Shown here in pieces: positions 3,692 through 64,000 of a DNA stretch of 64,000 bases. The stretch comes from Pontibacter kalidii. Its GTDB lineage: Bacteria; Bacteroidota; Bacteroidia; Cytophagales; Hymenobacteraceae. The stretch covers positions 4,106,501-4,170,500 of the forward strand of contig NZ_CP111079.1 in assembly GCF_026278245.1 (NCBI RefSeq), written 5' to 3'. The stretch's first letter is position 1; every line of letters starts with the position of its first letter. Under the pieces are notes generated by a model, which saw only the letters and a program-made list of their open reading frames with translations, was not told the DNA's origin and did not search any database. Made by a program: the position numbers and the translations under genes.

Positions 3692-3723
3692 TGCTGTAGA
3701 AGTATAGAAAGCTTAGTTTATAC

Positions 3724-4683
3724 TTACCAAACCCACTGCGGGCAAATGATGCGCCTGTCATTTAGGAGTTTAAAGCCTAGCACCACCTCATGCGTGCCCG
3801 CGCTTACCCTGTTCAGGTCGGAGGTAGTGAAGTCATAAGAATAGGAGAGGTCGAGTAGGGGGCTGATGTAAACACCCACCATGGCCGTGAGCGCGTCGTT
3901 ATGCCGATAGGCGCCGCCCAGCCAGAAGCGCTCGGCATACATTACCCGCAGGCTGGCATCGATGGAAGCCGGGCTCGGGTCGGCTAGCTTCACCATCACC
4001 GACGGGATTACGTCTATACTTTCGGTTGGTTCCAGGCGATAGCTGCCGGTAATAAAGTAATGCCGCTGCAGAGGCAGTACTGCCTCGCCGCTCCTGTCTG
4101 CGTTAAAGCTGCCAGCATCCTCCAGCAGCTGCGCCCCGGCCACTCCCACCGAAAAATTACGCGAGTACAGCCACAGGCCCAGGTTCAGGTCCAGCACGGT
4201 GTTGTTGATGTTGCCGCCAGCCAGCAAGGGGTCGTTATCGTTCGAGAAGTCAAGGTCGCTGGCGTTGATGGAGTTGCGGATAAGGCCGGTGGAGACGCCC
4301 CCCGAGAGGTTCAGGCTGGTGGTAAGGGGCAGGTGGTAAGCATAGGACACACTGAGGCCCGTGCGGCGCAGCGGCCCTGTTTTATCGGTGTGCAGGATCG
4401 CCCCGACACCATGGTGGGCCAGCGCGCGGTGGTACTTGTTGCTGGCCGCACCTTTGTTCAGCGGCGTGTGCGCCGATAGATAATACGTGCTCGGGGCACC
4501 GTCGATCCCTACCCACTGCCGCCTGTGGCTCAGCCTGATGTCGGCGTAATCCTCGATGCCTGAGATGGCCGGGTTAAGCAGGTAGTTGTTGAGCATGTAC
4601 TGGCTATGCTGCGGCCGTTGCTGCCCCATAGCCTGCATGGCCACGGCCATCAACGAAAGTATAAGTATAAGCGGCTTGGTCAT
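3724..4683 (-). CDS. PorP/SprF family type IX secretion membrane protein
   Basis: A 319-residue outer membrane protein with a signal peptide ending at about residue 21 (MQAMGQ). The segment QHSQYMLNNYLLNPAISG and the downstream RRQWVGIDGAP are hallmarks of the PorP/SprF family, and the rest alternates amphipathic strands as expected for a barrel. PorP/SprF proteins work with the T9SS and are needed to display particular giant adhesins on the surface (SprF for SprB in Flavobacterium). It begins 3 bases after the stop of the 1231-residue adhesin gene on the same strand, so the two are almost certainly co-transcribed and probably translationally coupled. This is the usual pairing of a type B-sorted substrate with its own SprF-like partner. 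Confidence 0.95.
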   Translation of the reverse strand: MTKPLILILSLMAVAMQAMGQQRPQHSQYMLNNYLLNPAISGIEDYADIRLSHRRQWVGIDGAPSTYYLSAHTPLNKGAASNKYHRALAHHGVGAILHTDKTGPLRRTGLSVSYAYHLPLTTSLNLSGGVSTGLIRNSINASDLDFSNDNDPLLAGGNINNTVLDLNLGLWLYSRNFSVGVAGAQLLEDAGSFNADRSGEAVLPLQRHYFITGSYRLEPTESIDVIPSVMVKLADPSPASIDASLRVMYAERFWLGGAYRHNDALTAMVGVYISPLLDLSYSYDFTTSDLNRVSAGTHEVVLGFKLLNDRRIICPQWVW

Positions 4684-4686
4684 GTT

Positions 4687-7600
4687 TTAACGGATAATGG
4701 TCACGTTACCGGAAAGCGGCTCCTCGTTGGCGCTGCGCAGGTAGATGAGGTAGTAGTAGGTGGCAACCGGCAGCTCCTTTCCATTGTAGGTACCATCCCA
4801 CGGCACGCCATACCCTTTAGAGCTGAAGATCTTGTTGCCCCAGCGGTTAAATACCTCCACCCGCATGTCCGGGTAATTCTCATAGTTCTTGATCTCCCAC
4901 ACCTCGTTCACATTGTCGCCGTTCGGGGAGAAGGCGTTCGGCACCTCGACGGCAGGGATTACCTCTACCGTTACGCTCGCCGTATCCACACAGCCCTCGG
5001 CCGTGGTGACGGTTAGCGTATAAGTGATAGTTTCCTCTGGTCTGGCCACAGGGTTCTGCAGGGTCGGGTCGTTGAGGCCAGTGGCTGGCTCCCATAAGTA
5101 GGTTGCGCCGCCGGAGCCGCGCAGCTCCACGGGCTGGCCTTGTATAATGGTCACATCCTCGCCGGCGCTTGCCTCTGCCACTACCACCGACACCGTAACC
5201 GGAGTTCGGGCCGTGCTGGCGCACTGCTGGGTATTCACCGCCTCCACATAGTAGGTGGTAGACTGGGTAACATTATCCACCGGAAACTCTGCCCCGATAA
5301 AGACAGGGTTACCGCCTGTTGAGGAAGTATACCACCTGTAGTCCATTCCATTGGCATTGGTTACCGCCAGCGTAACCGACTCGCCAAAGCATGCTGTTGC
5401 ATTGTTCACGGCAACTGTAGGCGCAGCAGGCAGAGGGAGTATGTTTATACTTGCCACATTAGAGGTATCGGAACAGCCACCGGAAAACACGATCCTGCGG
5501 AACCAGGTTTCCCGGATAAGGGCTGCCGGCTGATAGCTCTGCCCAGTGTTCGTACCAGCCGCTTCCACAAATCCGGCATCCGGCCCTGTAGTGCTGCTCT
5601 CCCACAGGTACGTATAACCGCCGGCACCGTCTGTAGGCGTGCTGCCGGTTATCTGTGGCGGCTCCTGCGACTGGCAAACCTCAGGCTGTGCCACCGTGAT
5701 GGCATTGTTGCGCAGAGCAGGGGCCACCCTTATCTCCAGCACGTCGGAGGTGTCGGCATTACAGGAGGCAGAGCTTACCACACGGCGGAACCAGGTGGTG
5801 GTAGTAAGTATACCTGGCGAATAGTTTTGGCCCGTACTTGCTCCTGCAGCTGCCCTGAAACCTGCGTTTGGCCCCGTGGTACTACTCTGCCATAAGTAAT
5901 TGTAGCTGCCACTGCCGCCAGTCGGCTCGGTGCCGTTAAGGATGGATGGCGCGGTACCGACACACACCTGAGGCTCGTCGGTGCTGATCTCATTATTCGC
6001 CAGCCTTGGGTATAGCGTGACCTTAACTGCCTCTGAATAGGACGTGCAGCCGCCGGAGGTTACCCCTCTGCGGAACCAAGTCTCCCCCTGCCGCAGCGCG
6101 CCTGCCGGTATCTCATAGTTTACGTCGTCGTTTGTTCCGGGCGCGCTGGCAAAGCCAGTTTCAGGGCCGGTTGTGCTTACCTCCCACAGGAAAGTATAAG
6201 GCCTGCCGCCGCCGCCCGTAGGCTCTGAACCGATAAGCTGTCCGGGTGTGTCGCCCTCGCAAATCTCGGTAGGGCTAACCGCGATAGTGTTGGCGCTGGC
6301 TGGCACCGGATCCACAGCTAGGATAGAAACCACATTGCTGATGTTTTCGGCACAACTTCCGGAGAAGACCACGCGCCTGAACCAGGTATCGCCGGACACG
6401 GCCTCGGTGGGGGTATAGTCTTTGGTATTATTTGTCCCGGGAGCAGCCGTGAAGCCTGCCGTCGGGCTGGTGGTGCTGACCTCCCAACGATAGCGGGGCG
6501 CTGCGCCCGGGGCTCCGCCAGTAGGAGTAGAACCGGTTATGGAGGGCGGCACAGCCCCTACGCACAGGCTTCGCACCTGCTCTCCCTGCACCTCTATGGT
6601 GTTACCGTCGATGGCGGGCACCACGGTGATGGGTACGGGGGTAAAGTCGCTGATACAAACAACCCCATTAGCCGTGTCGATGGCCGCTACATAGAAGGTA
6701 ATATCGTTTGTTAGGGAAGGTGTGGTGAAAGTAGGCCCCGTAAACAAAGGTGCTGCAGCGGGATCGTTGGTATCGAACCAGGCAAAGATCGGCCCCGGGC
6801 CGGATGGGGTGAGCTCGATCATATCGCCTTCGCAAGCGGTAATGGGTGTTTGCACAATAGGCGCTGCGGGCTGTTGCAGTATAACCACCTCTTGCACCGG
6901 CGCCGGCTGCCCCTGGTAAATGGCATTGGAGCTGCCGCACTCATTTATCGCCTCCAACGACACCGTATACTTGCCGGGTTGGGAAAAGGTATACTTGTAC
7001 TGAAACACATCAGAGGGAAAGGTCTGCGTGGTGCTGGTAGGGCCGGTTATGGTTAGCCTGACGGTAATATTTTCCCCTAAATTCTTATCCACAAACAGGC
7101 CGCCGCCAAAACCACCGCCCGGGCCGCTGCTGCTGTAGTCTATTTCCGTAGGCCCGCAAACGGTAACACTTGGCGGCAGCTGCACCTGCGGCCAGCCCAC
7201 CACAATACCCTGCGAGGTGGTATCAGACTCACAGCCGTTGGTTACGATCTGCTCAATCGTGTAGACGCCGGACTGCGTGAACCTTATACTTGGCTCTGCG
7301 GAGGCAGAGTCGCCTGTCTCGAAGGACCACCCCTGCGCCGGCTGCACCGACCATTTATAGGAAAGCCCGCCCCCCGTGGCACTATCAGCCAGGGTAACGA
7401 TAATAGGCACACAGGGCGGTTGCTGGTCTTCCTCCACCCGCTTCTTTTCCGCAATAGAAAAGTTGGCCTTAGGCTCCTTGCTCACGTTGAAATCCTGCGT
7501 AAAGGTCACCTCACAACCGTTACCGGCAATAGCCCTGATGGTGATGGGAAACGTACCGATGGTATCGTAGGCGGTGGGGTTGGAGATCGGGAAATCGCCG

Positions 7601-8382
7601 CGGCTGTACTGTTGCTCAGGGTCTCCGTTGCCCCAATCCACAAAGTAGGTACGGATGTCGGAGAGATAAGGCTCTGCTACTTCATTGTTGATTATGGCAA
7701 ACTCCTCTATCTCACTATCCTCTACAGTATCCGGCAAGCATACCTGAAAATTGCTCTCTTCTGAAAAACTGATTTCCGGGAGGCTGTTTACACGGATAAC
7801 CTGCCTGGCTGTATCAGATTCACAGCCCAGAGAGTTGGCAGCAAAAGCCTTTACTTCAAACGTCTCATCTCCCACGCCAATCGAAGTATAAGTGTGTGTC
7901 ACTTCTGATCCTCTGGCTGTGCTGCCATCCCCAAAAAGCCAGGTGTAGGTTACGTCAGGATCGGGCGCGTTTACAGAGAAGGTGAGTTCATCGCCGGAGC
8001 ATATAGGGTTGTTGGGTGCCGGAGTAGGGGAAACGATAAAGCCGGGAGAAGTTGGCTTGGGGTTTACGGTAATCACCCGTTCGCTGGAGGTGTTCGTATC
8101 GCAGGTGCTGCCTGTAACCCGCACCTGATAAGCCCCGGATTCACTCACCTGCAGTATCCGCCCCGTTTGCCCGGTTAAGTCCGCACCGTCTTTTATCCAT
8201 TGGTAGCTGAGCCCATCTCCTTCAGGCGCCTGCAGCTCAGTAGTCTCTCCTTCACAAAGTACGGTACGCCCGTTCACGGTAATAGTAGTAGGGCAACTAT
8301 CCTGTGCCACGCCGGTGTGGTTAAGCAGCAGCAATAAGGAGAGTAGGCTAAGAAACAAATACCTTTGAAAAAGAAGGCGCAT
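4687..8382 (-). CDS. Giant gliding-motility-type adhesin, Ig/PKD repeats, T9SS type B sorting domain
   Basis: A 1231-residue secreted protein. The signal peptide ends near residue 27 (HTGVAQ). An Ig-like domain (about 28-105) is followed by a PKD domain (about 125-195, WLFGDGS). Residues about 590-977 contain four diverged repeats of about 90 residues, each with a W.sSTtgP..GF centre and a TWFRR..  S..C end. The last 86 residues (from about 1145: VPNAFSPNGDNVNEVW, then VFNRWGNKIF and YYYLIYL) form the gliding-motility-associated C-terminal domain, the type B T9SS sorting signal (TIGR04131-like). The protein should be exported by the T9SS and held at the surface. It is the first gene of an operon with the PorP/SprF protein. 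The ligand cannot be told from sequence. Confidence 0.93.
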   Translation of the reverse strand: MRLLFQRYLFLSLLSLLLLLNHTGVAQDSCPTTITVNGRTVLCEGETTELQAPEGDGLSYQWIKDGADLTGQTGRILQVSESGAYQVRVTGSTCDTNTSSERVITVNPKPTSPGFIVSPTPAPNNPICSGDELTFSVNAPDPDVTYTWLFGDGSTARGSEVTHTYTSIGVGDETFEVKAFAANSLGCESDTARQVIRVNSLPEISFSEESNFQVCLPDTVEDSEIEEFAIINNEVAEPYLSDIRTYFVDWGNGDPEQQYSRGDFPISNPTAYDTIGTFPITIRAIAGNGCEVTFTQDFNVSKEPKANFSIAEKKRVEEDQQPPCVPIIVTLADSATGGGLSYKWSVQPAQGWSFETGDSASAEPSIRFTQSGVYTIEQIVTNGCESDTTSQGIVVGWPQVQLPPSVTVCGPTEIDYSSSGPGGGFGGGLFVDKNLGENITVRLTITGPTSTTQTFPSDVFQYKYTFSQPGKYTVSLEAINECGSSNAIYQGQPAPVQEVVILQQPAAPIVQTPITACEGDMIELTPSGPGPIFAWFDTNDPAAAPLFTGPTFTTPSLTNDITFYVAAIDTANGVVCISDFTPVPITVVPAIDGNTIEVQGEQVRSLCVGAVPPSITGSTPTGGAPGAAPRYRWEVSTTSPTAGFTAAPGTNNTKDYTPTEAVSGDTWFRRVVFSGSCAENISNVVSILAVDPVPASANTIAVSPTEICEGDTPGQLIGSEPTGGGGRPYTFLWEVSTTGPETGFASAPGTNDDVNYEIPAGALRQGETWFRRGVTSGGCTSYSEAVKVTLYPRLANNEISTDEPQVCVGTAPSILNGTEPTGGSGSYNYLWQSSTTGPNAGFRAAAGASTGQNYSPGILTTTTWFRRVVSSASCNADTSDVLEIRVAPALRNNAITVAQPEVCQSQEPPQITGSTPTDGAGGYTYLWESSTTGPDAGFVEAAGTNTGQSYQPAALIRETWFRRIVFSGGCSDTSNVASINILPLPAAPTVAVNNATACFGESVTLAVTNANGMDYRWYTSSTGGNPVFIGAEFPVDNVTQSTTYYVEAVNTQQCASTARTPVTVSVVVAEASAGEDVTIIQGQPVELRGSGGATYLWEPATGLNDPTLQNPVARPEETITYTLTVTTAEGCVDTASVTVEVIPAVEVPNAFSPNGDNVNEVWEIKNYENYPDMRVEVFNRWGNKIFSSKGYGVPWDGTYNGKELPVATYYYLIYLRSANEEPLSGNVTIIR

Positions 8383-8675
8383 CTAGATAGGAGTTAAGGG
8401 TGATCTATAGGCTCAGAGTTTTGTATTACGAAAATCATATATATTAAGATACACCATTAATAGCTTTGTATCGACCACAATGGCTTAGCATTAGCCACTG
8501 TGCAGAAGAGAAAAGACCAGCAGAAGAGCGGCAGCGACAAAAAAGGCGCCACGCCACCCTTTACCTCTATTGCCAAAACCTACAAAAGGTTACATGGCGT
8601 CTTCGATTTTTATAAGATGTAAATACTTAACGCATTGTGTTCCTGCAAATTGTGCCGAAAGACCACTAAAACAAT
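8383..8675. other. Intergenic region upstream of the giant adhesin
   Basis: The gap between the adhesin start and the hairpin at 8676. The first 70 bases are AT-rich and should contain the adhesin promoter, but no full consensus match is seen. No gene was recognised. Confidence 0.45.
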
Positions 8676-8703
8676 AGTGCCTGCAACCGGAATTGCAGGC
8701 ACT
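8670..8703 (-). terminator. Hairpin, probable terminator of the 8835-9566 gene
   Basis: Perfect 11-bp stem, AGTGCCTGCAA (8676-8686) with TTGCAGGCACT (8693-8703), 6-base loop. On the minus strand it is followed by ATTGTTTTAG, a weak U-tract. It lies 130 bases past the stop of the upstream minus-strand gene. Confidence 0.6.
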
Positions 8704-8834
8704 GCCGATCTAGCGCGGGACACCGTACGCCTGTAAGTTGCACCACCGCAGCCACAACGAAGCCTTACTACAGGGCCGCCCGATTACAGGGCGCACCAGG
8801 CGGCTTTGGCAGAGAGAAAGAGAGGAGTTTATCC

Positions 8835-9566
8835 TCATGCACTTTCAAACAGGAGTTCATTTTTTTGTTTGCCTACCACCTGGATCACTTCCATTTTGCG
8901 CAGGCAATACGTAATCTGGCGGCAACGGTGAATAGGCAGGGAAAGCGCTACTGACAGCGTTTTATTGGAAAAAGGGCGAACCAAGCCCTCCGGAAGGAAG
9001 CGGAGAAAGTCAGCCGCTGTTGTAAAGCGATGGGAACTGACCACTTCGAGGAGCTTTCTGTCTTTTATGCTTTCGCGCTTCCTGTACTTGCTGCCCCTGC
9101 CGTCACGGCAACGCACCTCCTCCTCCCGGATCATCGGAAACTCCATCGTAAAGTTCTCATGCTTTATCAGTTCCGGAATCCGGACCAGCTCCTCGAAGAT
9201 GTCCGTCAGTTTGCCCCGGTACGGAGATTTGCGCCGCGATTTTACTTTTGTACCTGCCTCATCTACCTGCAGCACCCATTTCTCAAAGGTAATAGGGTGG
9301 AGCAGGTGCACGCGGTGCTCCTGTACCAGCGTCTGCAGTTTCTGCCGGATAGCCGCAAAGTTGCGCGTCTGTATCTCCACCAACTGCTCGCCCCGCACCA
9401 GGTCAATAAAAAAACCGTTTAACGGCACTTCAAAATTGTCTTCTGGCTGCGCATACCATTGCTTCAGGGCCGCGTGCAGCGAGCGTTCGTTCTGCACCCC
9501 GATCCCGCTGCTCGTTGCCTTTTTCTCTTCCTGCTCTTTAGACTTCTCCAACCCTTGCCTTCTCAT
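8835..9566 (-). CDS. Conserved protein of unknown function with nuclease-like N-terminus
   Basis: 243 residues from the chosen start at 9566 (MRRQGLEKSK); an upstream in-frame ATG at 9599 is less likely because a TAATTTTG promoter-like box (9587-9594) lies between the two. The N-terminal third has NERSLHAALKQWY, then GFFIDLVRG, then LVEIQTRNF. The spacing of E, D and ExQ resembles the core of PD-(D/E)XK nuclease folds. A basic middle part (RRKSPYRGKLTDIF) and a C-terminal segment with winged-helix-like character (LPIHRCRQITYCLRKMEVIQVV) follow. I recognise it as a widely distributed conserved family of unknown function, possibly one of the high-numbered DUF families, but cannot name it with certainty. 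It is divergent from the glycosyltransferase operon. Nuclease activity is inference. Confidence 0.75.
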   Translation of the reverse strand: MRRQGLEKSKEQEEKKATSSGIGVQNERSLHAALKQWYAQPEDNFEVPLNGFFIDLVRGEQLVEIQTRNFAAIRQKLQTLVQEHRVHLLHPITFEKWVLQVDEAGTKVKSRRKSPYRGKLTDIFEELVRIPELIKHENFTMEFPMIREEEVRCRDGRGSKYRKRESIKDRKLLEVVSSHRFTTAADFLRFLPEGLVRPFSNKTLSVALSLPIHRCRQITYCLRKMEVIQVVGKQKNELLFESA

Positions 9567-9815
9567 TATATGGTAAAACCTACATCCAAAATTAGTCATT
9601 TGGCGCGCTTTTTACCACAGGCCCTACCCCCACTCTACACAGCAAATGCGTGCGTGGACACCTGAGGCAGCGGCATCGCCAAACAGAAATTGCATTTATT
9701 TACTTTTCATCATGACCTTTCCCTGCAGAAAGCGTACTATACCAATCAGGCAGTGGCAGTACCTATCCCTATAATTGCACCTGCAGACACCCATACATTC
9801 TAAAGAAACAAACTT

Positions 9816-11063
9816 ATGTTCAAAGACACGCCCGCGCCACACTCAGGGAGCGAGACTGCCCCTGCACCTCCGATAGTTACCCGCGAAAGCCCAGATAGTC
9901 CGCAGCAAAAGGAAATAAGCTGCTTCCTGCAGCAACTCCGGGATGTGGTGTGCCTCTCGCATTTGCGCTGGGACTTTGTGTACCAGCGGCCGCAGCACCT
10001 TCTATCTCGCTTTGCCCACTACGGGCGCCTGTTCTTTATAGAGGAGCCGGTGTTCGAGAACGTGGAGGAGCCATACCTGCATACCTCCTCCAGAGGTGAG
10101 AACCTCCTGTTAGTGGTACCACAACTACCGCACGGTCTCCGGGAAGAGCAGATTGAGGCTATCCAGCGCCACCTTCTGGACCAGTTCTTTGCGGAGCACA
10201 AGTTGGAGGCGCCCGTTCTCTGGTACTACACCCCCATGGCCCTTGGCTTTACCAGGCACCTCAAGCCCGCCCTCACGGTTTACGACTGCATGGATGAGCT
10301 GTCGGCTTTTAAGTTTGCACCGCCACGCCTGAAGGAACTGGAGCTGGAGCTCTTTAAAAGGGCCGACCTGGTGTTTACGGGAGGCCAGAGCCTGTATGAG
10401 GCAAAGCGCAGCTGGCACTCCGCGATAACGGCCTTCCCCAGCAGCATCGACAAGGACCATTTCGCCCGGGCCAAGCAGGCACTTACACCACCTGCCGATC
10501 AGAGGGACATACCCATGCCCCGCCTCGGTTTCTTCGGTGTGATAGACGAGCGGATGGATGTGGACCTGCTAACGGCGCTCGCCGACGCACGGCCGGATTG
10601 GCAGCTCGTGATGATTGGCCCGGTGGTGAAAATAGACCCCGACACGCTGCCGCAGCGCCCGAACATCCATTACCTGGGAGTCAAGTCTTACCAGGAGTTG
10701 CCAGCCTACATAAGCGGCTGGCAGGTGGCCCTGCTGCCCTTTGCCCTTAACGCGTCCACAACCTTTATCAGCCCCACCAAAACACCTGAGTACCTGGCGG
10801 CAGGCAAGCCCGTGGTATCTACCCCTATCCGGGACGTAGTGCGCCCTTACGGTGAGGAGGGCCTGGTGCACATCGCCGGCACGTCGGCGGCATTCGTGAA
10901 AGCCGTGGAGGCGGCCATGACACAGCAGAATGACCAGGCATGGCAGCAAAAGGTGAGCAGCTTTATGCGCGACATGTCTTGGGACCAGACCTGGCGCGCC
11001 ATGGTAGCGTTGATGGCCCATGTGGTAAAGAGAAAAAGCGGCATCCAAAGCGAGGGGAGGTAG
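9816..11063 (+). CDS. Glycosyltransferase (GT1/GT4-like) paired with UDP-galactopyranose mutase
   Basis: 415 residues. After a non-conserved leader of about 45 residues the protein has HLRWDFVYQRPQHLLSRFA, typical of a clade of GT-B transferases encoded next to glf. The middle has LTVYDCMDELSAF and the C-terminal donor-binding half includes FISPTKTPEYLAAGKPVVST, the region that usually contacts the nucleotide-sugar. It is the first gene of a three-gene operon (1 base before glf, then a GH1-like glycosidase). A role in transferring galactofuranose or a related sugar is plausible from the context but the acceptor is unknown. Cytoplasmic or membrane-peripheral; no transmembrane segment is seen. 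Confidence 0.87.
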   Translation: MFKDTPAPHSGSETAPAPPIVTRESPDSPQQKEISCFLQQLRDVVCLSHLRWDFVYQRPQHLLSRFAHYGRLFFIEEPVFENVEEPYLHTSSRGENLLLVVPQLPHGLREEQIEAIQRHLLDQFFAEHKLEAPVLWYYTPMALGFTRHLKPALTVYDCMDELSAFKFAPPRLKELELELFKRADLVFTGGQSLYEAKRSWHSAITAFPSSIDKDHFARAKQALTPPADQRDIPMPRLGFFGVIDERMDVDLLTALADARPDWQLVMIGPVVKIDPDTLPQRPNIHYLGVKSYQELPAYISGWQVALLPFALNASTTFISPTKTPEYLAAGKPVVSTPIRDVVRPYGEEGLVHIAGTSAAFVKAVEAAMTQQNDQAWQQKVSSFMRDMSWDQTWRAMVALMAHVVKRKSGIQSEGR

Positions 11064-11064
11064 T

Positions 11065-12261
<1,197 letters not shown>

Positions 12262-12315
12262 TGCTGTGAGCATCCCCGCTTGATCATCAGCAAGAATTAA
12301 CCCTGTAAACAGCGC

Positions 12316-14061: not shown

Positions 14062-14081
14062 GCTTAGCAACAAGGACGACA

Positions 14082-15273: not shown

Positions 15274-15278
15274 TGAGG

Positions 15279-54589: not shown

Positions 54590-54591
54590 GA

Positions 54592-55860: not shown

Positions 55861-55872
55861 AAAGTATAATTT

Positions 55873-56021
55873 TGAATGAGTGGATGTGTGAATGAGTGCA
55901 TGATCTTTTTAAGGGATCAAGACAGACTCTTTATCTGGTTAAAGCCTGTATGCGCAAGTATAAGTATAGCCACAGAATTTATAGCAACTTTTATTCACAC
56001 ATTCACTCAACCACTCATTCA
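55873..56021. repeat. Inverted repeat upstream of the YjbQ gene
   Basis: TGAATGAGTGGATGTGTG (55873-55898 in full) recurs inverted at 55996-56021 with 3 differences in 26 bases. The arm pair encloses about 100 AT-rich bases with two adjoining AAGTATA heptamers. Confidence 0.65.
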
Positions 56022-56030
56022 GCATTGATT

Positions 56031-57401
56031 TTAATCTATCGTACGTTCATACGCGCCTGCGTCGGGTTGGGTACTGCTGCGGGTGGCGCCTTTTATGTCC
56101 TGACGTATGGCTGGCAGTACTTTGGCTGCGCCGCTGGCAGGGGAGAGGGTATCGAGGCTGAAATCATACTTGGGAGGCGCCTTAAACTTTGGCTCGGTGT
56201 TCAGAATATTGTTTTCGGAGAATTGTGCTTTATGCCTTTCGGTGCGTAGCAGGTTGCTGGTTACCTCCGTGGCGGCGGTGGCCGGCTCTACCACTACCTC
56301 ATCCGAGGTGCTGTAGCCATCCGAGTACACAATCGAGTTCACCAGCCGCAGCGAAGTAGGCTGGTCCACAATCTCCGTTTCAGGTATAAAATCGACTACG
56401 GCCAGCAGCGGCGTTTCGCGCTGCAACGGGTTCTGGTAGCTGGCAATGGTAGTATAGAGCAACTCATACTTGCCGCCGCCCAAGCCCCCGAAGCCATACT
56501 GCCCGCAATTATAGATGAGCGTATTCACCAGCCGCACCTCCGAGGTAAAGGCCACCACGCCACCGAGCATGGCATGCGCCACGATGCTTCCCTCTATCAA
56601 CGTGCCTGCCTTTCCCGGATTGTCTATGCGCACGCCGTAGACAGTGTTCTTCACATCCGCATACTTTATACTACTGCCCCCGCTGGTTGCCAGAATCCGG
56701 ATGCCTTCCCACTGGCCAGGCGCTGTGCGGTAATCCTCTTCGCGGCGGTAACCGCTAAAGCTCACCCGCTCCTGCGGCGTACCCTGCACCTGCAACTGCC
56801 CCGCCACCAGCAGTACCGATTTGTTGTAGCCGTAAATGCGGGCTCCTTTCTCGATGGTGAGGATGCCCCCCTCAGGCACCAGCACCGAATCCAGCAGCAC
56901 GTGTGGTTTATCGGCGGGCCAGGTGGTGGTGCCAATGCTGCCTTTGCGGTGAAAGTAGGCGTTTTGGCCGTAGGCCACCAGCTTCACGTTTTGCTGCTGC
57001 CCATTGGTGGTAAAAAGGATGGAGTCTGCCGCCAGGAAAGGCTGGTTCTGGTCTGAGGGGTTGATGTTGGCCTTTACGAGCACGTACAGGCTGTCGCCGC
57101 CGCGCAGCTCGAGGTTGTTTGCCAGCGGCGCCTGCACACCATTAATCGTGAGCTGGTAAGGAGAGGAAGCGGCACCTGCCAATGTGATCTCGCTGATGCG
57201 CACGGCCTTCTCGTTACGGTTGTACACTTTCAGGCGCTTGGTGATGCTGCCACGGCTCACGAAAACGGTATCAAACAGTACGGTGTCTGCCGAGAAAGCC
57301 AGCAGCGCCCCAGGGTCGGTGGTAATCACCTCCTCCTTGGGCTCACAGCCGAACACCGACAGCAGCAGGAACAGGGGCAGTATCGTGAGCAGGAACTTCA
57401 A
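56031..57401 (-). CDS. Parallel beta-helix lipoprotein
   Basis: 456 residues. Lipobox SVFGC. The chain is beta-rich with a DUF-like N-terminal part (FDTVFVSRGSITKRLKVYNR) that resembles an immunoglobulin-like P-x-F-type domain. From about residue 185 come right-handed beta-helix turns (ILTIEKGARIYGYNKSVLLV, SIKYADVKNTVYGVRI, SIVAHAMLGGVVAF). Ends with DAGAYER, a common finish of bacterial beta-helix proteins. Probably outer membrane lipoprotein, function unknown. Confidence 0.85.
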   Translation of the reverse strand: MKFLLTILPLFLLLSVFGCEPKEEVITTDPGALLAFSADTVLFDTVFVSRGSITKRLKVYNRNEKAVRISEITLAGAASSPYQLTINGVQAPLANNLELRGGDSLYVLVKANINPSDQNQPFLAADSILFTTNGQQQNVKLVAYGQNAYFHRKGSIGTTTWPADKPHVLLDSVLVPEGGILTIEKGARIYGYNKSVLLVAGQLQVQGTPQERVSFSGYRREEDYRTAPGQWEGIRILATSGGSSIKYADVKNTVYGVRIDNPGKAGTLIEGSIVAHAMLGGVVAFTSEVRLVNTLIYNCGQYGFGGLGGGKYELLYTTIASYQNPLQRETPLLAVVDFIPETEIVDQPTSLRLVNSIVYSDGYSTSDEVVVEPATAATEVTSNLLRTERHKAQFSENNILNTEPKFKAPPKYDFSLDTLSPASGAAKVLPAIRQDIKGATRSSTQPDAGAYERTID

Positions 57402-57570
57402 GTATAGTTATTCGTTGTTAGTTGTTCGTTATTGGAAAGTATGGATATGCATGAAGTAGGTTACGTAACAATTTAACCTTGCAACAATTTAGCAATTAAA
57501 AAGAAAAAGGATGCAGCGCCGCCATAATGCTGCACTACATCCCTTTCATTTATTTTTTAGCGCCTGTTGC

Positions 57571-58647
57571 TTATTCCGCTGTGGCGCCTTCTTTCAGTCT
57601 TTCTGCGTTCTCGGCAATACGAAGCTCCTCTACAAAGTCGTCAATGCCGCCGTCCATCACGTTGGGCAGGTTATACACGGTGTAGCCGATGCGGTGATCG
57701 GTTACGCGGCCCTGCGGGTAGTTGTAGGTACGGATCTTGTCGGAGCGGTCGCCGCCGCCTACCATGCTCTTGCGCTGGGCACCCTCGGCCTCGTTCTTCT
57801 TGGCCAGCTCCACTTCAAAGATACGCGAGCGGAGTACTGCCAGCGCCTTATCGTAGTTCTTGAGCTGTGATTTCTGGTCCTGGCACTGGGCCACGATACC
57901 CGTTGGGATGTGCGTCAGGCGCACGGCAGAGTACGTGGTGTTTACCGACTGACCACCCGGGCCGGAAGAACAGAAAAGGTCTTTGCGGATGTCGTTCATG
58001 TCGATCTCCACGTCGAACTCCTCGGCCTCCGGCAGCACCACTACCGACGCCACGGAAGTATGGATACGGCCCTGCGTTTCGGTGGCCGGCACGCGCTGCA
58101 CGCGGTGTACTCCCGACTCAAACTTCAGCTTGCCGTACACGTCCTCCCCGGATATGCCTACGATAATCTCTTTGTACCCTCCGGAGGTGCCTTCGGTAGC
58201 ATCCATCAGCTCCATTTTCCAGCCATGCTTCTCCGCGAAGCGGCTGTACATGCGGTACAGGTCGCCGGCAAAGATGGAGGCCTCGTCGCCGCCCGCCCCG
58301 GCACGGATCTCCATAATGATGTCCTTGCTGTCGTTCGGGTCTTTAGGGATCAGCAGCTCCTTCAGGGTGTCCTCCATGGCTTCGCGCTGCGGCAGCAGCT
58401 CGTCCAGTTCCTCCTTGGCCATCTCCCTGAAATCCTCGTCCTTCTCCGTAGCTATCACCTGCTTGGCGTTGTCGATGTTGCTCAGGATGTTCAGGTACTT
58501 CTTATATTCAACGACGATCTTGTCGAGGTCTTTATACTCTTTGTTCAGCGCCTTAAATTTCTTCATGTCGCTGGCCACATCCGGCTGGATAAGCAACTGG
58601 CTTACCTCTTCAAAACGCTGATTGATGGCTTCTAACTTATCTAACAT
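57571..58647 (-). CDS. prfA: Peptide chain release factor 1
   Basis: 358 residues. The GGQ motif is in [10 protein letters not shown] (about 230), catalysing peptidyl-tRNA hydrolysis. The codon-recognition PxT triplet is P-A-T in [14 protein letters not shown], indicating RF1 (UAA/UAG). The last part [17 protein letters not shown] is standard. No AAGTATA heptamer is present in this gene. A TATCTTTG box (58671-58678, minus) may be the promoter. Confidence 0.99.
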
Positions 58648-58861
58648 CGTGCTTTCCTGGTTTTAGGCTGCAAAGATACAAAATTGGGCTATAGGTTTTA
58701 TTATCCTCCTTAACCGCTTTAAGTATAATTTTGTCGCCTTAATTTATTCTAAGCTATAACTTTAAAGCTGCGGGTATAGTTTCAGGAGAGAGGGGAGGAT
58801 GCGCCGGAAATTACGATATAGACCATATCTATAAAGGGATAAATTAAATCTATCTAAACTA
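58648..58861. other. Divergent intergenic region prfA / thioredoxin
   Basis: AT-rich divergent spacer containing the prfA promoter candidate at 58671-58678 (minus) and one heptamer. No gene. Confidence 0.5.
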
Positions 58862-58894
58862 TTGCCTTACTTCCGACTGAAACATTTACTTTTG
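58862..58894 (+). promoter_or_regulatory. Promoter of thioredoxin-DUF6952 operon
   Basis: TTG (58862-58864), 22-base spacer, TACTTTTG (58887-58894). Spacer is slightly long, but the -7 box is perfect. Confidence 0.6.
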
Positions 58895-58948
58895 ACTTTG
58901 GTTATATAGGGATAGAACGAATTTACGTAAATCACAAAAAGAAGAAAT

Positions 58949-59269
58949 ATGGCTGTTATAGTAGCAACTGACAACGATTTTAACGAAGTACTGAACGCAA
59001 ACCAGAAAGTGGTGGTGAAATACTATGCCGACTGGTGTGGCAGCTGCCGCCTGTTCTCGCCTAAGTTCAAGCGTTTGTCCGACGACGAGGCTTTTGCCAA
59101 CGTGGCTTTCGTGGATGTGAACGCCGAGACCAGCCCGGAGGCGCGCAAATTGGCTAACGTAACGAACCTGCCAACTTTCGCCATCTTCAAAAACGGCCAG
59201 CTGGTAGATTCCGTGGCTGCCAGCAAAGAGGAAGCCGTTCGTGAACTGATCCATAAACTAGACGCCTAA
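58949..59269 (+). CDS. Thioredoxin family protein
   Basis: 106 residues, a complete thioredoxin fold. Active site WCGSCR with Cys30 and Cys33; the cis-proline segment is NLPTFAIFKNGQ. WCGSC instead of WCGPC is a variant in this Bacteroidota group. No signal peptide: cytoplasmic. 7 bases before the DUF6952 gene. Confidence 0.95.
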   Translation: MAVIVATDNDFNEVLNANQKVVVKYYADWCGSCRLFSPKFKRLSDDEAFANVAFVDVNAETSPEARKLANVTNLPTFAIFKNGQLVDSVAASKEEAVRELIHKLDA

Positions 59270-59276
59270 GCATACT

Positions 59277-59519
59277 ATGAAGATACCTGCTATAAAGAAA
59301 CTGGTTGAGAATTATAACCTGGACGAGTTAATGGCCGCAGAGGCCGCTATTGTGGATGAACAGCAGCCTGCCATTGAGGTGGGGGGCGACGACGAGGGCG
59401 AGCAGCTGACGCACGTGCTGGCCGCCGTCTGGATACTGAATGACATGGAAGACAATGGTACCGACTTTAAAACCGCCCTGCGTTCCTATACGCAGAAGGT
59501 GCGTGTTTCCATCAGCTAA
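59277..59519 (+). CDS. Small conserved protein, DUF6952-like
   Basis: 80 residues: MKIPAIKKLVENYNLDELMA, acidic middle, HVLAAVWILNDMEDNGTDFK. I recognise it as the small protein commonly encoded right after this thioredoxin in Bacteroidota (DUF6952). Function unknown; operon suggests a redox partner or regulator. Confidence 0.8.
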   Translation: MKIPAIKKLVENYNLDELMAAEAAIVDEQQPAIEVGGDDEGEQLTHVLAAVWILNDMEDNGTDFKTALRSYTQKVRVSIS

Positions 59520-59538
59520 AAGCTACCTGAAATATCCT

Positions 59539-59585
59539 ATAAAGCGCTGCGGCCAACGTAAAATACGTTGGCCGCAGCGCTTTAT
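59539..59585 (+). terminator. Long perfect terminator hairpin
   Basis: 22-bp perfect stem (59539-59560 / 59564-59585) with AAA loop, GC core GCGCTGCGGCC. Ends the thioredoxin operon. The T-run is weak (TTTATA), so it may also serve as a bidirectional block. Confidence 0.75.
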
Positions 59586-59622
59586 ACGTTGTAGAGCCTA
59601 TCCCTTGTAAAGTAAAGGTTTC

Positions 59623-60234
59623 CTAAATGTTGCTCTTCGAGAAGTAGTCTTCTGCCAGCTTGCTGCCTTTGTCGGTGCAGAGGCCGCGCACATAGTATAG
59701 GTAGATGCTCCGGAAAACCTCGCCCATCTCGTAGCGGTCTGGCGGGAAAACGTGCGGGTTAATGATGAGGTTAAACTGCTCCAGGATGATCTTGGTAACC
59801 AGCTGCAGGTTGATGTCCTTCCGGAAATAGCCCTGCACCACTCCTTTGTTTATCACTCCGAAATTCAGGTCGTGGTTATAGGTGTTGAGGTGGTCCAGGC
59901 ACAACTGCCATACCTGCGGATAAAACTGTTGCATGTCATAGATATAGACCGGGCTGATTGCCTGCAGTTCCCTGATGCCGTGCAGCAGCAGCAGGATAAT
60001 CTCCTCCACCGGGTTTCTGGCACTCTGCAGCAGCTCCTGGTCGCGCTGCTCCCCCAGGTACAAATCGTGTTGCACCACCTGCCGCACCATGTCGGCTTTG
60101 CTGGAGAACAAGGCGTTGTAGTCGCTCTGCTGTATTCCCAACCGCTCCATTAGCTCCTCTTCCGTATGGCGCTCTATCCCCTCACTCTTGAATACCTGAA
60201 GTAGCTGACCTAAAATTATTTCTGGTAAAACCAT
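59623..60234 (-). CDS. TetR/AcrR family transcriptional regulator
   Basis: 203 residues. An N-terminal helix-turn-helix region (TEEELMERLGIQQSDYNALFSSKADMV) is TetR type, though degenerate; the rest is helical (VEEIILLLLHGIRELQAISP, LQLVTKIILEQFNLIIN). It lies downstream of the carotenoid operon on the same strand. A palindrome overlapping its -7 box (60322-60339) could be its own operator. Confidence 0.85.
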   Translation of the reverse strand: MVLPEIILGQLLQVFKSEGIERHTEEELMERLGIQQSDYNALFSSKADMVRQVVQHDLYLGEQRDQELLQSARNPVEEIILLLLHGIRELQAISPVYIYDMQQFYPQVWQLCLDHLNTYNHDLNFGVINKGVVQGYFRKDINLQLVTKIILEQFNLIINPHVFPPDRYEMGEVFRSIYLYYVRGLCTDKGSKLAEDYFSKSNI

Positions 60235-60321
60235 GTATGTAAAAATACCTTATCCCGCAGCAACAGCATAGCCTGCTTTCTGATGACCTTTTCTTTTGGT
60301 AAAGGGGTCTTAAACACAGGT

Positions 60322-60339
60322 TACCTTTTTCCAAAGGTA
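60322..60339 (-). promoter_or_regulatory. Promoter box and palindrome of the TetR gene
   Basis: TACCTTTTTCCAAAGGTA (60322-60339) is a palindrome (7-bp arms, 4-base spacer). On the minus strand its left half contains TACCTTTG, a TAnnTTTG box. An operator overlapping the promoter suggests autoregulation; inference. Confidence 0.45.
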
Positions 60340-60372
60340 CATATTTTTTTTTCTATCATGGAAAACAGAAAA

Positions 60373-61053
60373 TTATAGCAGCCCGAAAATACCCACGAAA
60401 AAGAGCAGCTGCACCAGGTAAACGAAAGGGGCCAACCGGTTTTTTTTATAGATGGATGCCCGCTGGAAGTACACCTGCAGCCCCAGCGCCACCAAAAACC
60501 AGCCCGCAAAGTTGCTAAGCGGTATCTGCCCGCCCTGCCAGTCCCAGAAGTCGAACCGCATGGCCACCGGCTCTATGAAAAAATCGAGCAGCAGCATGAG
60601 CAGCGTGCCAACTATGGCTTTTGCCCACCAGGGCAGGCGCGCATAGTTGCTGATGTGGCCGGTGCTGTAGACCAGCATCAGCCAGTTCAGGCCGATCAGC
60701 AGGGGCACCTCCCATACTTTCACGCCCAGCGCCGCGCCGTAGGCATACTCCCCGAACAGCAGGCCGGTATGCACGCCCAGCACCTCCGAGAAAAAACCCA
60801 CGGCCCACACCACCACCGCAAAAAGTATAAACGCCGCGTTCCAGCAGCGGTGGAAGGCAAAGAGTAGCGTGTTGGTGAGCAGCAGGTTCATGGGGGTGAG
60901 GTTCTGGAAATACTCCGGCCTGCCGCTGAACATCAAGCCCCAAAACCCAACCGCATGGAAGATAACAAGTATAGCCACGGCCAGCGGCAGCGCATACTTT
61001 TTATACTTGGCGGCAACGGGTGCTAGGGCAGGTGCGGTCGTGGTGTCAGGCAT
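60373..61053 (-). CDS. cruF: Carotenoid 1,2-hydratase CruF-like membrane protein
   Basis: 226 residues from ATG 61053 (MPDTTTAPALAP), which overlaps the crtD stop by 8 bases; a start eleven codons upstream overlaps more. Seven or so transmembrane helices; VLGVHTGLLFGEYAYGAALG and MLLLDFFIEPVAMRFDFWDW are typical of the DUF422/CruF family. It would hydrate the psi end of carotenoids, giving the 1'-hydroxy group needed by CrtD. Last gene of the carotenoid operon. Confidence 0.9.
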   Translation of the reverse strand: MPDTTTAPALAPVAAKYKKYALPLAVAILVIFHAVGFWGLMFSGRPEYFQNLTPMNLLLTNTLLFAFHRCWNAAFILFAVVVWAVGFFSEVLGVHTGLLFGEYAYGAALGVKVWEVPLLIGLNWLMLVYSTGHISNYARLPWWAKAIVGTLLMLLLDFFIEPVAMRFDFWDWQGGQIPLSNFAGWFLVALGLQVYFQRASIYKKNRLAPFVYLVQLLFFVGIFGLL

Positions 61054-62548
61054 GGTGTTTTGGGGATTTAGCGGGTGAGGGGGCAACGGCAGGCACCAGC
61101 TCGCTCACGATTTTGGCCGAGAGCAGGCACAGCGGAATGCCCCCGCCGGGGTGTACGCTGCCGCCGCAGAAGTATAAGCCTTTTAACCTGGAGCTGAAGT
61201 TGGGGTGGCGCAAAAAAGCGGCCATGCGGTTGTTGGAGCTGCTGCCGTACAGGGCCCCGCCAAACGAAGAGGTGCGGCTTTCGATCAGCAGCGGGTCCAG
61301 CAACTGCTCTTCCTCAATGAGCGGCGAAATATCGGTGCCCAGCATTTTGCTCAGCTTCTGCAGCACCGCCTGCCGGGTGGCTGTGGTTAGCTGCTGCCAG
61401 TCCTGCCCCTGGTTGTGCGGCACGTTTACCATCACAAACCAGTTCTCCCCGCCTGCAGGCGCGTCCTGCGGGTCAGTTTTGGAAGTGATGTTGATGTACA
61501 CGGTAGGGTCGGGGCTGACGGTTTTATACTTGAAGATGTGCTCAAACTCATCTTTATAGTCCTGGCTGAAGAAGATGTTGTGCACGTGCAGCTGTGGGAA
61601 TTCGTGCCTGATACCCCAGTAGAAGATAAGCGCCGAACTGGAGCGCGGCTGCTGCAGCGTTTGCTCCGGCGCTTTTTGGTTGGGCAGGAGCTTGCGGTAC
61701 GTGGGCACCACATCCATATTGCTGACCACCACATTGGCTGTATACGTTGCGTGGCTGGTTTCTACGCCGGTTATACTTTTACCTGAGGTTAAAATCTGCT
61801 TTACGGGTTCGTTATACTTAAATGCCACGCCCAGTTCCTCCGCCAGTTGTACCAGGCTAGCCGCGATGGCATACATGCCGCCCTCCGGATAGAAGGCGCC
61901 GACGTTGTGCTCCAGGTGCGGAATGATGTTGAGCGTGCCGGGCGCCTGGTACGGGTCGGAGCCGTTGTAGGTAGCAAACCTGTCGAGCAGCTGCACCATA
62001 CGCGGATCGGAGAACTGGCTGGCGTTGGCCTGGTGCATGGTGGTGGTCAGGCCGAGATCGGAGAGGCAGCCCAATGCCTTCAGCACGTCGGGGCTCAGGT
62101 AAGTATCGAGCCGGTGCAGCGACTTCTGCAGGAACGTGCCGGCGGTGCCCTGGTAGAGCCGCGCGCTTTTCCGCAACGCCTCCCGCACCGCCTGCCCTGG
62201 CACCCCCAGCTGCTGCTCGGCCTCCCCGGCAAACTTTCCGGCGTCGGCCCAGGCCTTTACGTGGCTGCCGTCGGGCCAGAAGTAGTGCGTGATCGGGTCG
62301 AGGCGGGTGTAGCGGAAGTAGTCGGAGGGGGTACGGCCAGCCAGCGTGAACAGCTCATCCACCAGGTGCGGCAGCGTGAACAGCGAGGGGCCGGCATCGA
62401 ATCTATACTTGCCCAGCCAGAACTCCTGCATCTTGCCGCCAAAAGTAGGGTTGGCCTCCAGCACCGTGACCTCATAGCCTTTCACGGCCAGGCGCACGGC
62501 TGTGGCAATGCCTCCTATACCCGCCCCGATGATGGCTGCCTTCCTCAT
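61046..62548 (-). CDS. crtD: CrtD/CrtI-type carotenoid desaturase (probable 1-hydroxycarotenoid 3,4-desaturase)
   Basis: 500 residues. The FAD motif is AAIIGAGIGGIATAVRLAVK; KYRFDAGPSLFTLPHLVDEL and the C-terminal GLYFCGGSVHPGGGIPLCLL are those of the CrtI superfamily. ALIFYWGIRHEFPQLHVHNI and INVPHNQGQDW-like segments match Bacteroidota CrtD better than phytoene desaturase CrtI. With CruF next to it, it would form 3,4-unsaturated 1-hydroxycarotenoids (flexixanthin-, saproxanthin- or myxol-type pigments). Overlaps cruF by 8 bases. CrtI cannot be excluded. Confidence 0.9.
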   Translation of the reverse strand: MRKAAIIGAGIGGIATAVRLAVKGYEVTVLEANPTFGGKMQEFWLGKYRFDAGPSLFTLPHLVDELFTLAGRTPSDYFRYTRLDPITHYFWPDGSHVKAWADAGKFAGEAEQQLGVPGQAVREALRKSARLYQGTAGTFLQKSLHRLDTYLSPDVLKALGCLSDLGLTTTMHQANASQFSDPRMVQLLDRFATYNGSDPYQAPGTLNIIPHLEHNVGAFYPEGGMYAIAASLVQLAEELGVAFKYNEPVKQILTSGKSITGVETSHATYTANVVVSNMDVVPTYRKLLPNQKAPEQTLQQPRSSSALIFYWGIRHEFPQLHVHNIFFSQDYKDEFEHIFKYKTVSPDPTVYINITSKTDPQDAPAGGENWFVMVNVPHNQGQDWQQLTTATRQAVLQKLSKMLGTDISPLIEEEQLLDPLLIESRTSSFGGALYGSSSNNRMAAFLRHPNFSSRLKGLYFCGGSVHPGGGIPLCLLSAKIVSELVPAVAPSPAKSPKHHA

Positions 62549-62608
62549 ACTTTCCTATACGGCATTATACTTTTTGTGCAGTAAACTGATGGGGTGGGGG
62601 AAAGGTTT

Positions 62609-63049
62609 TTATACTTTCCCGAACTCCCGCTGGTAAACCGGCTTCCGCATGCCGAACTGCACCTTCATGAGCGGGTAGAGCAGCAAATCCAGCGGTTTAA
62701 AGCCGGTGCTGTACGTGATGATATCATGAATCACGGCGCCGCTGCCATTTTTGGAAACCAGGTGCTTGTGATGCCATACTTTTAGCGGCGGCGGCAGTTC
62801 CTGGCCCTGGTCTACAAAGTACGCCTCGGTGCCGGTTATACTTCTCTCGGTGATCAGGCTGGTCCAGCGGAAGGATTTGATGCCGGTCTGCAGCTCTACC
62901 GCCACCACATCGCCGGGCCCGGAGCCATCGAAGCGCAGCAGCTTTAGCCTGGGGTAGGGCGGGGAGAGCTTCCCGAACAGCTGCTCATCAAAGGCGTTGA
63001 ATACGCTGAGGTAGTCCTGGCTGACGTATGTGCTGAGGTGGAGCTGCAT
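62609..63049 (-). CDS. SRPBCC family protein of the carotenoid cluster
   Basis: 146 residues with a START/Bet v1-like ligand-binding fold: MQLHLSTYVSQDYLSVFNAF, VVAVELQTGIKSFRW, WHHKHLVSKNGSGAVIHDII and LLLYPLMKVQFGMRK. Proteins of this type are found in carotenoid clusters of Bacteroidota; the role is unknown, perhaps ligand binding. First gene of the operon, 60 bases before crtD. Confidence 0.82.
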   Translation of the reverse strand: MQLHLSTYVSQDYLSVFNAFDEQLFGKLSPPYPRLKLLRFDGSGPGDVVAVELQTGIKSFRWTSLITERSITGTEAYFVDQGQELPPPLKVWHHKHLVSKNGSGAVIHDIITYSTGFKPLDLLLYPLMKVQFGMRKPVYQREFGKV

Positions 63050-63095
63050 TTTGTAATTGATGAATTGTGTGATTGCTGGTTTTGCAGTGCCGGGT

Positions 63096-63136
63096 CAAAC
63101 CACCCCTACTCCTCCTTAACCAAGGAGGGGAGTTCT
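63096..63136. repeat. GGAGGGG-family palindrome
   Basis: AACCACCCCTACTCCTCC, TTAACCAA, GGAGGGGAGTT: a full copy between the helicase and SRPBCC genes. The rest of 63050-63276 has no gene. Confidence 0.85.
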
Positions 63137-63276
63137 TACTTACTCCTTTCAACCACCTCCGGGCCTTAAAGTTATACTCCCATAAAAAAAGAAACGCCGC
63201 TGCATGTATACTTGCGGCGGCGTTTTTATACTTTCTACTGAAAAACAATTATCAATCAACAACCAACAATCAAGCC

Positions 63277-64000
63277 TTAACTCAGCAGGTTGTCAATATC
63301 CTCTTTGGTGAGGCTCTTGATCACGGTTTCGTCAGTGCTGATGAGGTCGGTAACGAGCCGTATCTTGCGGTTTTGCAGCGCCAGTATCTTTTCCTCCACC
63401 GTGTCCTTGGTGATGAACTTATAGGTGAACACCGTGTTCTGCTGCCCGATGCGGTGCGCGCGGTCTATGGCCTGCGCCTCTACGGCCGGGTTCCACCAGG
63501 GGTCAAGTATAAACACATAGTCGGCAGCAGTCAGGTTCAGGCCCACGCCACCGGCCTTCAGCGAGATCAGGAACACCTGTATACTTTCGTCTTTCTGGAA
63601 ACGCTCTACCTGCTCGTGGCGGTTCTTGGTGTTGCCGTCCAGGTAGGTATACGTTATCTCCCGCTTATCCAAGGACCTCTTAATGATCTCGAGGTGCTTC
63701 ACGAACTGACTGAATATCAAAACTTTATGCCCCTTACTTACCACATCCATGGTTTTATGGACCACTTCCTTCAGCTTGCCTGAGCTTCCTTCGTAGCCCG
63801 GATCGGTCATCAGGGGGTGGTTGGCGATCTGGCGCAGTTTGGTGAGGCCCTGCAAGAGCATGAACTGGGTGTTCCCCGGGCCGTTCTCCTCCAGGTTCGT
63901 CAGGATCTTGTTGCGGTAAAAGGACTTCGTTTCCTCATAGGCGTGCTCCTGCTCCTCCGTCATCTTGCAGAAGGTGGTACTCTCTATCTTTTCGGGCAGC
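63277..64000 (-). CDS. SNF2/DEAD-like helicase, C-terminal part (5' end beyond window)
   Basis: 241 residues are visible, running in from the window edge; an internal Met at 63963 is not the start. The region contains the helicase C domain with KVLIFSQFVKHLEIIKRSLD (motif IV), FLISLKAGGVGLNL (motif V) and DRAHRIGQQNTVFTYKFI (motif VI), as in SNF2/HepA-type ATPases. TVEEKILALQNRK follows as usual. It remodels protein-DNA complexes using ATP. The C-terminus KEDIDNLLS is normal for this family. Confidence 0.97.
   Translation of the reverse strand, partial: LPEKIESTTFCKMTEEQEHAYEETKSFYRNKILTNLEENGPGNTQFMLLQGLTKLRQIANHPLMTDPGYEGSSGKLKEVVHKTMDVVSKGHKVLIFSQFVKHLEIIKRSLDKREITYTYLDGNTKNRHEQVERFQKDESIQVFLISLKAGGVGLNLTAADYVFILDPWWNPAVEAQAIDRAHRIGQQNTVFTYKFITKDTVEEKILALQNRKIRLVTDLISTDETVIKSLTKEDIDNLLS

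Follow-up and report, generated by a model that had tools for sequence, protein, structure and literature searches.

Why does a single asymmetric heptamer recur so often, on both strands and both inside and outside genes, along one stretch of bacterial DNA? The stretch comes from Pontibacter kalidii (contig NZ_CP111079.1, positions 4,106,501 to 4,170,500), and its whole length of 64,000 nucleotides is called the window here; the heptamer is AAGTATA, or TATACTT as read from the other strand. Its over-representation is real and extreme. From its counts, its distribution and its variation between species, we consider that the word is probably a DNA uptake sequence, a self-tag in natural transformation, and that it would serve a competence route without type IV pili.

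By exact count the window holds 134 copies, 67 forward and 67 as TATACTT, against 5.6 expected on the two strands from base composition and 5.2, 8.4 and 24.6 from Markov models of order 1, 2 and 3. At orders 4 and 5 the expectations reach 62 and 116, since the word raises the counts of its own sub-words. Enrichment over base composition is 24-fold for the heptamer and 166-fold for its extended 9-mer form, AAGTATAAA, of which the window has 51 copies. A preliminary description of this DNA had reached much the same picture by hand: about 129 copies between positions 3700 and 63586, where the exact number is 131; an expectation of about eight, in line with low-order models (5.6 to 8.4); and a local peak at 17.3 to 21.4 kilobases (kb), where 19 sites lie in 17337 to 21407. 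It overstated matters only in calling the genome GC-rich, which it is mildly, at 53% GC in the window. That description had also allowed that AAGTATA might prove close to expectation genome-wide, or that all its single-base variants might be in equal excess. Instead, AAGTATAAA occurs 3210 times in the whole 5.05-Mb genome (1653 forward, 1557 reverse) and its reversed-pattern control 46 times (23 and 23), and the 21 one-base variants of AAGTATA have 4 to 39 copies each in the window, with only AAGTATG (39) and AGGTATA (25) conspicuous. The base 3' of the word is A or G at a frequency of 0.77 to 0.79, C at 0.18 and T at 0.03 to 0.05, and the word with its flanks is asymmetric, not a palindromic octamer. 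The copies and the extremes of their spacing lie as follows.

164..63586, both strands: AAGTATA copies (134, 67 per strand), mostly followed by A or G, in coding and non-coding DNA (exact counts, positions, sequence logo).
17337..21407: where copies are densest (19 in about 4.1 kb), with genes for a HemN-like radical SAM protein and a putative cyclase, and neighbouring open reading frames (positions, Pfam).
7891..12024: longest copy-free stretch, covering the 5' part of an Ig_7/CHU_C surface protein gene, a glycosyltransferase gene and most of a UDP-galactopyranose mutase gene (Pfam).

The longest gap between copies runs for 4141 bp from position 7884 (random P 0.017), and the copy-free stretch is possibly newer DNA. 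Rfam matches at gathering thresholds in the window comprise only a transfer RNA and an S-adenosylmethionine (SAM) riboswitch.

The simplest account of such an excess would be a mutational or codon-usage artefact without function, and the word does share sub-words with frequent A/T strings and is absorbed by high-order Markov models. Within open reading frames (ORFs) of at least 200 amino acids (aa), copies occupy all six placements of frame and strand (sense 16/4/8, antisense 13/11/14). Their density there is 1.69 per kb (66 sites), against 3.15 per kb (50 sites) outside ORFs of at least 100 aa, and the preliminary description was right to place them in every reading frame and between genes. 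Shuffling synonymous codons within genes, the ORFs being picked by length and not curated, left 7.9 sites (standard deviation 2.9, maximum 14, 30 shuffles) where the real sequence has 66. Simple codon bias, already argued in that description to be insufficient alone, is thereby ruled out. Promoter elements are ruled out as well, since sites lie throughout genes and on both strands.

The word takes different forms in different species. Our sample comprised 50 Pontibacter genomes, that of P. kalidii included, with stretches of 29 to 64 kb from each. An unbiased search for enriched words covered 44 Pontibacter stretches of 20 kb and seven from other genera (the short L047 and L050 were left out); all xyzTATA words were then counted in each of the 50, and each genome's dialect was labelled by eye. 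In 39 of the 50 we found a single one of three one-base dialects, or two together: AAGTATA in 19 (hereafter AAG genomes), AGGTATA in 12 (AGG), AACTATA in four (AAC), and AACTATA with AAGTATA in four (G018, G033, G043 and G058), these two-word genomes being placed on the species tree close to AAG and AAC genomes or in their midst. Eight genomes had no clear word, and three had a weak or odd one (TATATA-like in G002, GGTATA-like in G117, weak in G131). After TATA, all three main dialects have T at only 0.04 to 0.05 and A or G together at 0.76 to 0.87, giving a common core of A-x-x-TATA followed mostly by a purine. The label 'none' is not strict, since G075, which bears it, has a weak excess of AACTATA (29 against 6.8). 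A search of the 'none' genomes for another word found nothing above z 13.0, compared with 52.7 in P. kalidii; that highest value belongs to the palindrome CTCCGGAG, with 20 copies in 89 kb against 1.9 expected in the word-less sister genomes G028 and G129. In G002, CTATATA stands in place of the three dialects (45 copies in 60 kb, 8.5 expected).

These dialects follow the species tree, which was built from two genes of the window with a Hymenobacter root (51 rows, of which nrdA covers 50 and metH 49).

22932..26645, minus strand: metH (1237 aa), tree marker (nearest MetH among named genomes).
29718..32102, plus strand: nrdA, tree marker and anchor for the orthologous stretches, present in 50 of 50 genomes (Pfam).

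The nearest MetH proteins among named genomes are those of Pontibacter ramchanderi (91%) and Pontibacter sp. 172403-2 (87%), followed by Hymenobacter at about 70%; immediately upstream of metH lies the SAM riboswitch (26718 to 26826, minus strand), an ordinary regulator. On the tree the dialect labels require 10 parsimony changes; 2000 shuffles of the labels averaged 27.6 and never fell below 22. Eleven of the 12 AGG genomes form one clade (support 1.0), and the twelfth, G123, branches basally next to that clade. Of the eight AAC and two-word genomes, seven group with one AAG genome (support 0.74), and the eighth, G043, lies nearby inside AAG. The eight genomes labelled none, the three others and the AAG genome G089 make up a single clade (support 1.0).

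We compared sites at orthologous positions, as the preliminary description had proposed, dropping alignments shorter than 150 bp. The comparison within the window drew on the following block.

15233..32142: block aligned piecewise to P. ramchanderi for the between-species comparison of sites, with metF, metH, the SAM riboswitch, nrdB, nrdA and others (alignment).

Twenty-five AAGTATA sites of the window, at least one of which may fall in an extra piece at 6741 to 7659, could be aligned to P. ramchanderi (80% nucleotide identity), where six read AGGTATA, two AGGTATG and one AAGTATA; in the AAG genome Pontibacter sp. 172403-2, 5 of 17 aligned sites read AAGTATA. Over the whole sample, AAG sites compared between one AAG genome and another were preserved in 50.6% of 7653 pair-sites. 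At the same sites AGG genomes have AGGTATA in 23.6% and the unchanged word in 8.2% of 4588 pair-sites, and AAC genomes have AACTATA in 15.7% and the unchanged word in 25.8% of 1856. In genomes labelled none, 12% of 1913 pair-sites still show AAGTATA. Four control words, with all genome pairs pooled, were kept in 10.3% and 13.6% of cases for two of them and in no more than about 4% for the other two (outside their own four commonest outcomes); pair-sites are not independent, and the retention figures are descriptive, not tests. AAG sites are kept beyond control words, and replacement of one dialect's word by another's at the same position, through point change, is frequent and beyond chance. 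A functionless artefact is contradicted by this retention and rewriting, by the reversed control and by the synonymous shuffles, and the near-background counts of most one-base variants also speak against it; we find it scarcely credible.

Two named plasmids, of which 50 kb each was counted, carry the word no more often than background. That of P. akesuensis (116 kb) has nine words in the 50 kb counted (0.18 per kb; one-base variants mean 6.2) and that of P. actiniarum (204 kb) has 12 (0.24 per kb; mean 6.5), and chromosome stretches of the presumed hosts, G052 and G073, carry 1.38 and 1.05 words per kb. A 139-kb contig of G023 has nine words in 20 kb, and five contigs with ribosomal RNA operons (5 to 6 kb, one with 2500 N) have no copy or one copy of their own dialect's word.

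The mechanism that we propose for an uptake sequence would run as follows. A sequence-specific surface receptor would prefer word-carrying fragments in natural transformation, and these would enter by way of a ComEA-like helix-hairpin-helix (HHH) protein, ComEC and ComF, recombination being helped by DprA and RecA. Alleles that gained the word by point mutation would be re-imported more often, and the word would accumulate by molecular drive. Were the specificity of the receptor to shift by one base, sites would be rewritten in place by point mutation, from AAG to AGG or the reverse; passage from AAG to AAC would lead through genomes holding both words, and the dialects would range around A-x-x-TATA, then mostly a purine.

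Drive, in-place change with enzyme specificity and a low level on plasmids would also be produced by a Chi-style signal for recombination or DNA processing, a nuclease stop or site of RecA loading that spreads through better recombination of tagged ends. Words of the Chi and FtsK-orienting types favour one strand along each replichore. The window carries a single GC-skew sign and its copies divide 67/67, which speaks against replichore bias and bears on the question of strand bias raised in the preliminary description. The counts of 23 other 20-kb stretches, whose position relative to the origin is not known, are only slightly more strand-uneven than chance (chi-square 36.3, 23 degrees of freedom, P 0.04). 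For lack of strand bias we rejected a Chi or FtsK-orienting word as such. The enrichment of both heptamer and 9-mer is, moreover, far beyond the levels known for Chi, and a Chi-style signal of any kind appears unlikely.

The preliminary description had likened the word to two things, HIP1 and uptake sequences. Like HIP1, it is short and recurs at very high frequency in a bacterial genome. HIP1 itself, in passages of PMC4390886, is a palindrome linked to orphan methyltransferases, a frequent and dispersed word found beside them. Here too, a DNA methyltransferase or a repair process might maintain the word through methylation or biased mismatch correction, and methyltransferases are carried by many Pontibacter genomes. 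The Pontibacter word, unlike HIP1, is asymmetric and has dialects. In a survey of the 50 genomes for PF01555 and PF02384, other families not being searched, PF01555 was unmatched in 19, including the strong word-bearers G085, G083, G125 and G079. PF02384 gave only weak matches (best E 9e-18 to 1.5e-4) in G061, G043, G109, G079 and G105, and G109 is the densest AAG genome. A methyltransferase, which the preliminary description had suggested looking for, is thus to be found in many genomes, but neither family is conserved among those that bear the word. Maintenance of this kind is also hard to square with two plasmids that hold the word at background level, and we consider it improbable. Of the two likenesses, that to uptake sequences is the better supported, by asymmetry, strand balance in the window, dialects along the phylogeny, two-word genomes, in-place rewriting, low counts on plasmids and the presence of competence genes.

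The higher density of sites outside ORFs and their TATA core might instead suggest binding sites of an abundant chromosomal protein, concerned with organisation or regulation, that drift with its specificity. Such a protein sits poorly with sites on both strands, within genes and in every frame, and with eight genomes of one clade that have no clear word; one-base switches and two-word genomes would be unexpected for thousands of regulatory sites. We regard it as decidedly unlikely.

Candidate machinery for uptake is present throughout the sample. ComEC, DprA, a ComEA-like HHH protein (TIGR00426) and a ComF-like protein have matches in all 50 genomes. Outside G046 and G089, gene integrity was judged from open-frame and stop readings of profile matches; full-length comparison with the query from P. 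kalidii was made for ComEC in seven genomes, for DprA in four and for the HHH protein in two. Read in this way, 47 of the 50 genomes have the four genes open, an HHH gene of 310 to 346 aa occurs in each of the 48 genomes other than G046 and G089, and only in those two are the genes damaged as a set. Frameshifts and stops split ComEC, DprA and the HHH protein in G089 (AAG) and ComEC and DprA in G046 (AGG). ComF was examined last, when damage in these two genomes was already expected; the G089 gene has TAG and TAA inside its main match, with a 117-aa frame left, and in the 48 genomes other than G046 and G089 the main match is without stops. Control genes are in one piece, eight in G046 and seven in G089, the sole stop falling in the long Omp85 reading of G089 and being seen in seven other genomes as well. 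Ten neighbours of the broken HHH gene were matched in G089, nine without a stop and one with a single stop. The AAC genome G121 has one ComEC frameshift near residue 538 and its other three competence genes open, which may reflect an error or an early loss. G033:C2 and G097:C61 have second DprA-like genes in addition to the main one (frames of 322 and 334 aa).

A pilus motor was not among these genes: a survey of the 50 genomes with PF00437, pilins not being searched for, gave no full-length PilB/PilT-type or type II secretion ATPase. Among the matches listed, PF00437 fragments span 38 to 66 of 370 model positions, and the three genomes of 50 that pass the cut-off each do so by such a fragment. 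From sequence we infer a role for the word in uptake and its reading by a receptor, which, because no pilus or type II secretion ATPase was detected, would not be a type IV pilin. A ComP-like pilin receptor is therefore not expected in Pontibacter, and the word would not be a neisserial DNA uptake sequence (DUS) in the strict sense. One candidate receptor, a DUF5689 protein prompted by Riemerella, was tried and rejected, as matches in 22 of 50 genomes fell in word-bearing and word-less genomes alike. The shorter DUF5689 genes (three of 12 inspected by eye) lie beside SusD-like, TonB-receptor-like or other genes, and the long ones (two of five sampled were readable) look by eye like secreted nucleases. 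The neighbourhoods of comEC, seen as ORF lists in four genomes and by Pfam for ten proteins, contain no outer-membrane partner.

If the word marks DNA for uptake, its decay might be sought where competence is broken. Among the 19 AAG genomes, G089 retains sites least (0.284; residual -0.19 once identity is allowed for), and its ratio of perfect to one-off words is likewise the lowest (6.0). A number of other observations weigh against an uptake sequence. G046, although its competence genes are damaged, shows no decay of the word (retention 0.685, ratio 12.7), and some of its damage is mild: the HHH gene has one stop at residue 15, downstream of which a shorter protein might start, and ComF a single TAG inside the match, with a 254-aa frame left. 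G073 has open competence genes and a retention next to that of G089 (residual -0.14 against -0.19), G089 keeps AAG while its competent sisters G013 and G115 do not, and the eight genomes without a clear word retain open competence genes. The ComF-like matches all fall under the model's curated cut-off (0 of 50 above it). The DUF5689 survey, in which the match with the word predicted beforehand failed to appear, and the comEC neighbourhoods yielded no receptor. The second contig of P. kalidii is intermediate, with 11 words in 20 kb; single stretches show the slight strand unevenness given above; and in the window there is neither a peak of inverted-pair spacing, as in neisserial terminators, nor an AT-rich flank past +8 around the word.

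Competence and word are therefore not tied one to one, given word-less genomes with open competence genes. Our guess for G046 is that its competence was lost too recently to show in the word. In the word-less genomes, a loss of specificity rather than of competence would fit, as may hold by analogy for Neisseriaceae that lack an obvious DUS (PMC3630211). Apart from this mismatch between word loss and competence loss, the word appears to behave like an uptake sequence wherever sequence can test it.

Is the word confined to Pontibacter? In a survey of 200 genomes from the family, AAGTATAAA showed a many-fold excess in Pontibacter alone, and in only part of that genus; elsewhere there are small excesses, for example up to about 2.6-fold over the control in genus g3. 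A sample of 148 genomes from the order gave a high count for P. kalidii alone, the other Pontibacter drawn, G002, having 84 against 34. Neighbouring genera have words of their own. In 23.7 kb of Hymenobacter fodinae, TAGGCCA has 34 dispersed copies against 6.0 expected, always preceded by C or G and followed by C or G (one T), then mostly T; this may be a separate word system, and a stretch of Hymenobacter sp. BT18 has no copies. Two other genera of the family offer AACGCTA in G001 (18 copies in 20 kb and four in 6 kb, dispersed, A-rich before and T-rich after; its congener G007 has one copy in 6 kb) and ACCTAGG in G004 (14 dispersed copies in 20 kb where 1.6 would be expected, with G as the usual next base). 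These unrelated words hint that the whole family may run such systems.

The preliminary description knew of no comparable report for this phylum, and our searches of the open-licence literature agree, finding none on uptake words in Bacteroidetes, Pontibacter or Hymenobacter; with AAGTATAAA as the query, the matches listed were all unrelated by title. To our knowledge, experimentally confirmed uptake words come from Neisseriaceae and Pasteurellaceae only, both of which use pilus-type machines. The Pontibacter word, if an uptake sequence, would be a third case, unrelated to either, and would bring to the subject about 50 sequenced species, three dialects, two-word genomes and natural losses. 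It would allow uptake words as self-tags to be tested against uptake words as by-products of receptor bias, and it would open a route to a pilus-free DNA receptor in Bacteroidota. Opinion could fall evenly either way on the fuller proposal that a pilus-free uptake system evolved independently in Bacteroidota, in which a surface receptor would read A-x-x-TATA and a purine, fast shifts in specificity would have given one genus three or more dialects, intermediates with two words, and losses, and related systems, as hinted, would extend across the family.

Three known systems invite comparison. Within Bacteroidota, passages of PMC8459023 state that transformation of Riemerella anatipestifer requires ComEC, DprA, ComF, RecA, an HHH protein and proteins without known competence homologues, a 'unique machinery'. 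ComEC, DprA, ComF and the HHH protein have relatives in Pontibacter. Of Riemerella's four homologue-less proteins, the HHH one has a Pontibacter counterpart; for the rest, the DUF5689 domain alone was searched and gave no clear counterpart. The single lead that our searches gave in Bacteroidota is Riemerella columbina, which prefers its own DNA, and the table of frequent k-mers in PMC7965970 holds only A/T-rich strings; no convincing uptake word is known from Riemerella.

In Pasteurellaceae, according to passages of PMC1626085, the core of the uptake signal sequence (USS) differs between subclades and the USS is weaker in the competence-defective H. ducreyi, and competence genes are kept family-wide with recent defects in some species. 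The Pontibacter word differs in its lack of AT-rich flanking segments past +8 and in having several dialects within one genus; it resembles the USS in its short asymmetric core that varies by clade, and in competence genes that are kept, with defects in some genomes. In Neisseriaceae, as passages of PMC3630211 describe, DUS dialects follow the species tree, one genome has two dialects and some relatives have no obvious word. The Pontibacter word is unrelated to the DUS and shorter (7 to 8 bases; the DUS was counted as 10-mers in that source), and it goes with no detected type IV pilus ATPase and no inverted-pair spacing peak in the window. It shares with the DUS its thousands of scattered copies, dialects that follow the tree, two-word genomes and word-less relatives, and it likely belongs, as judged from these features, to the same kind of element as the DUS and USS.

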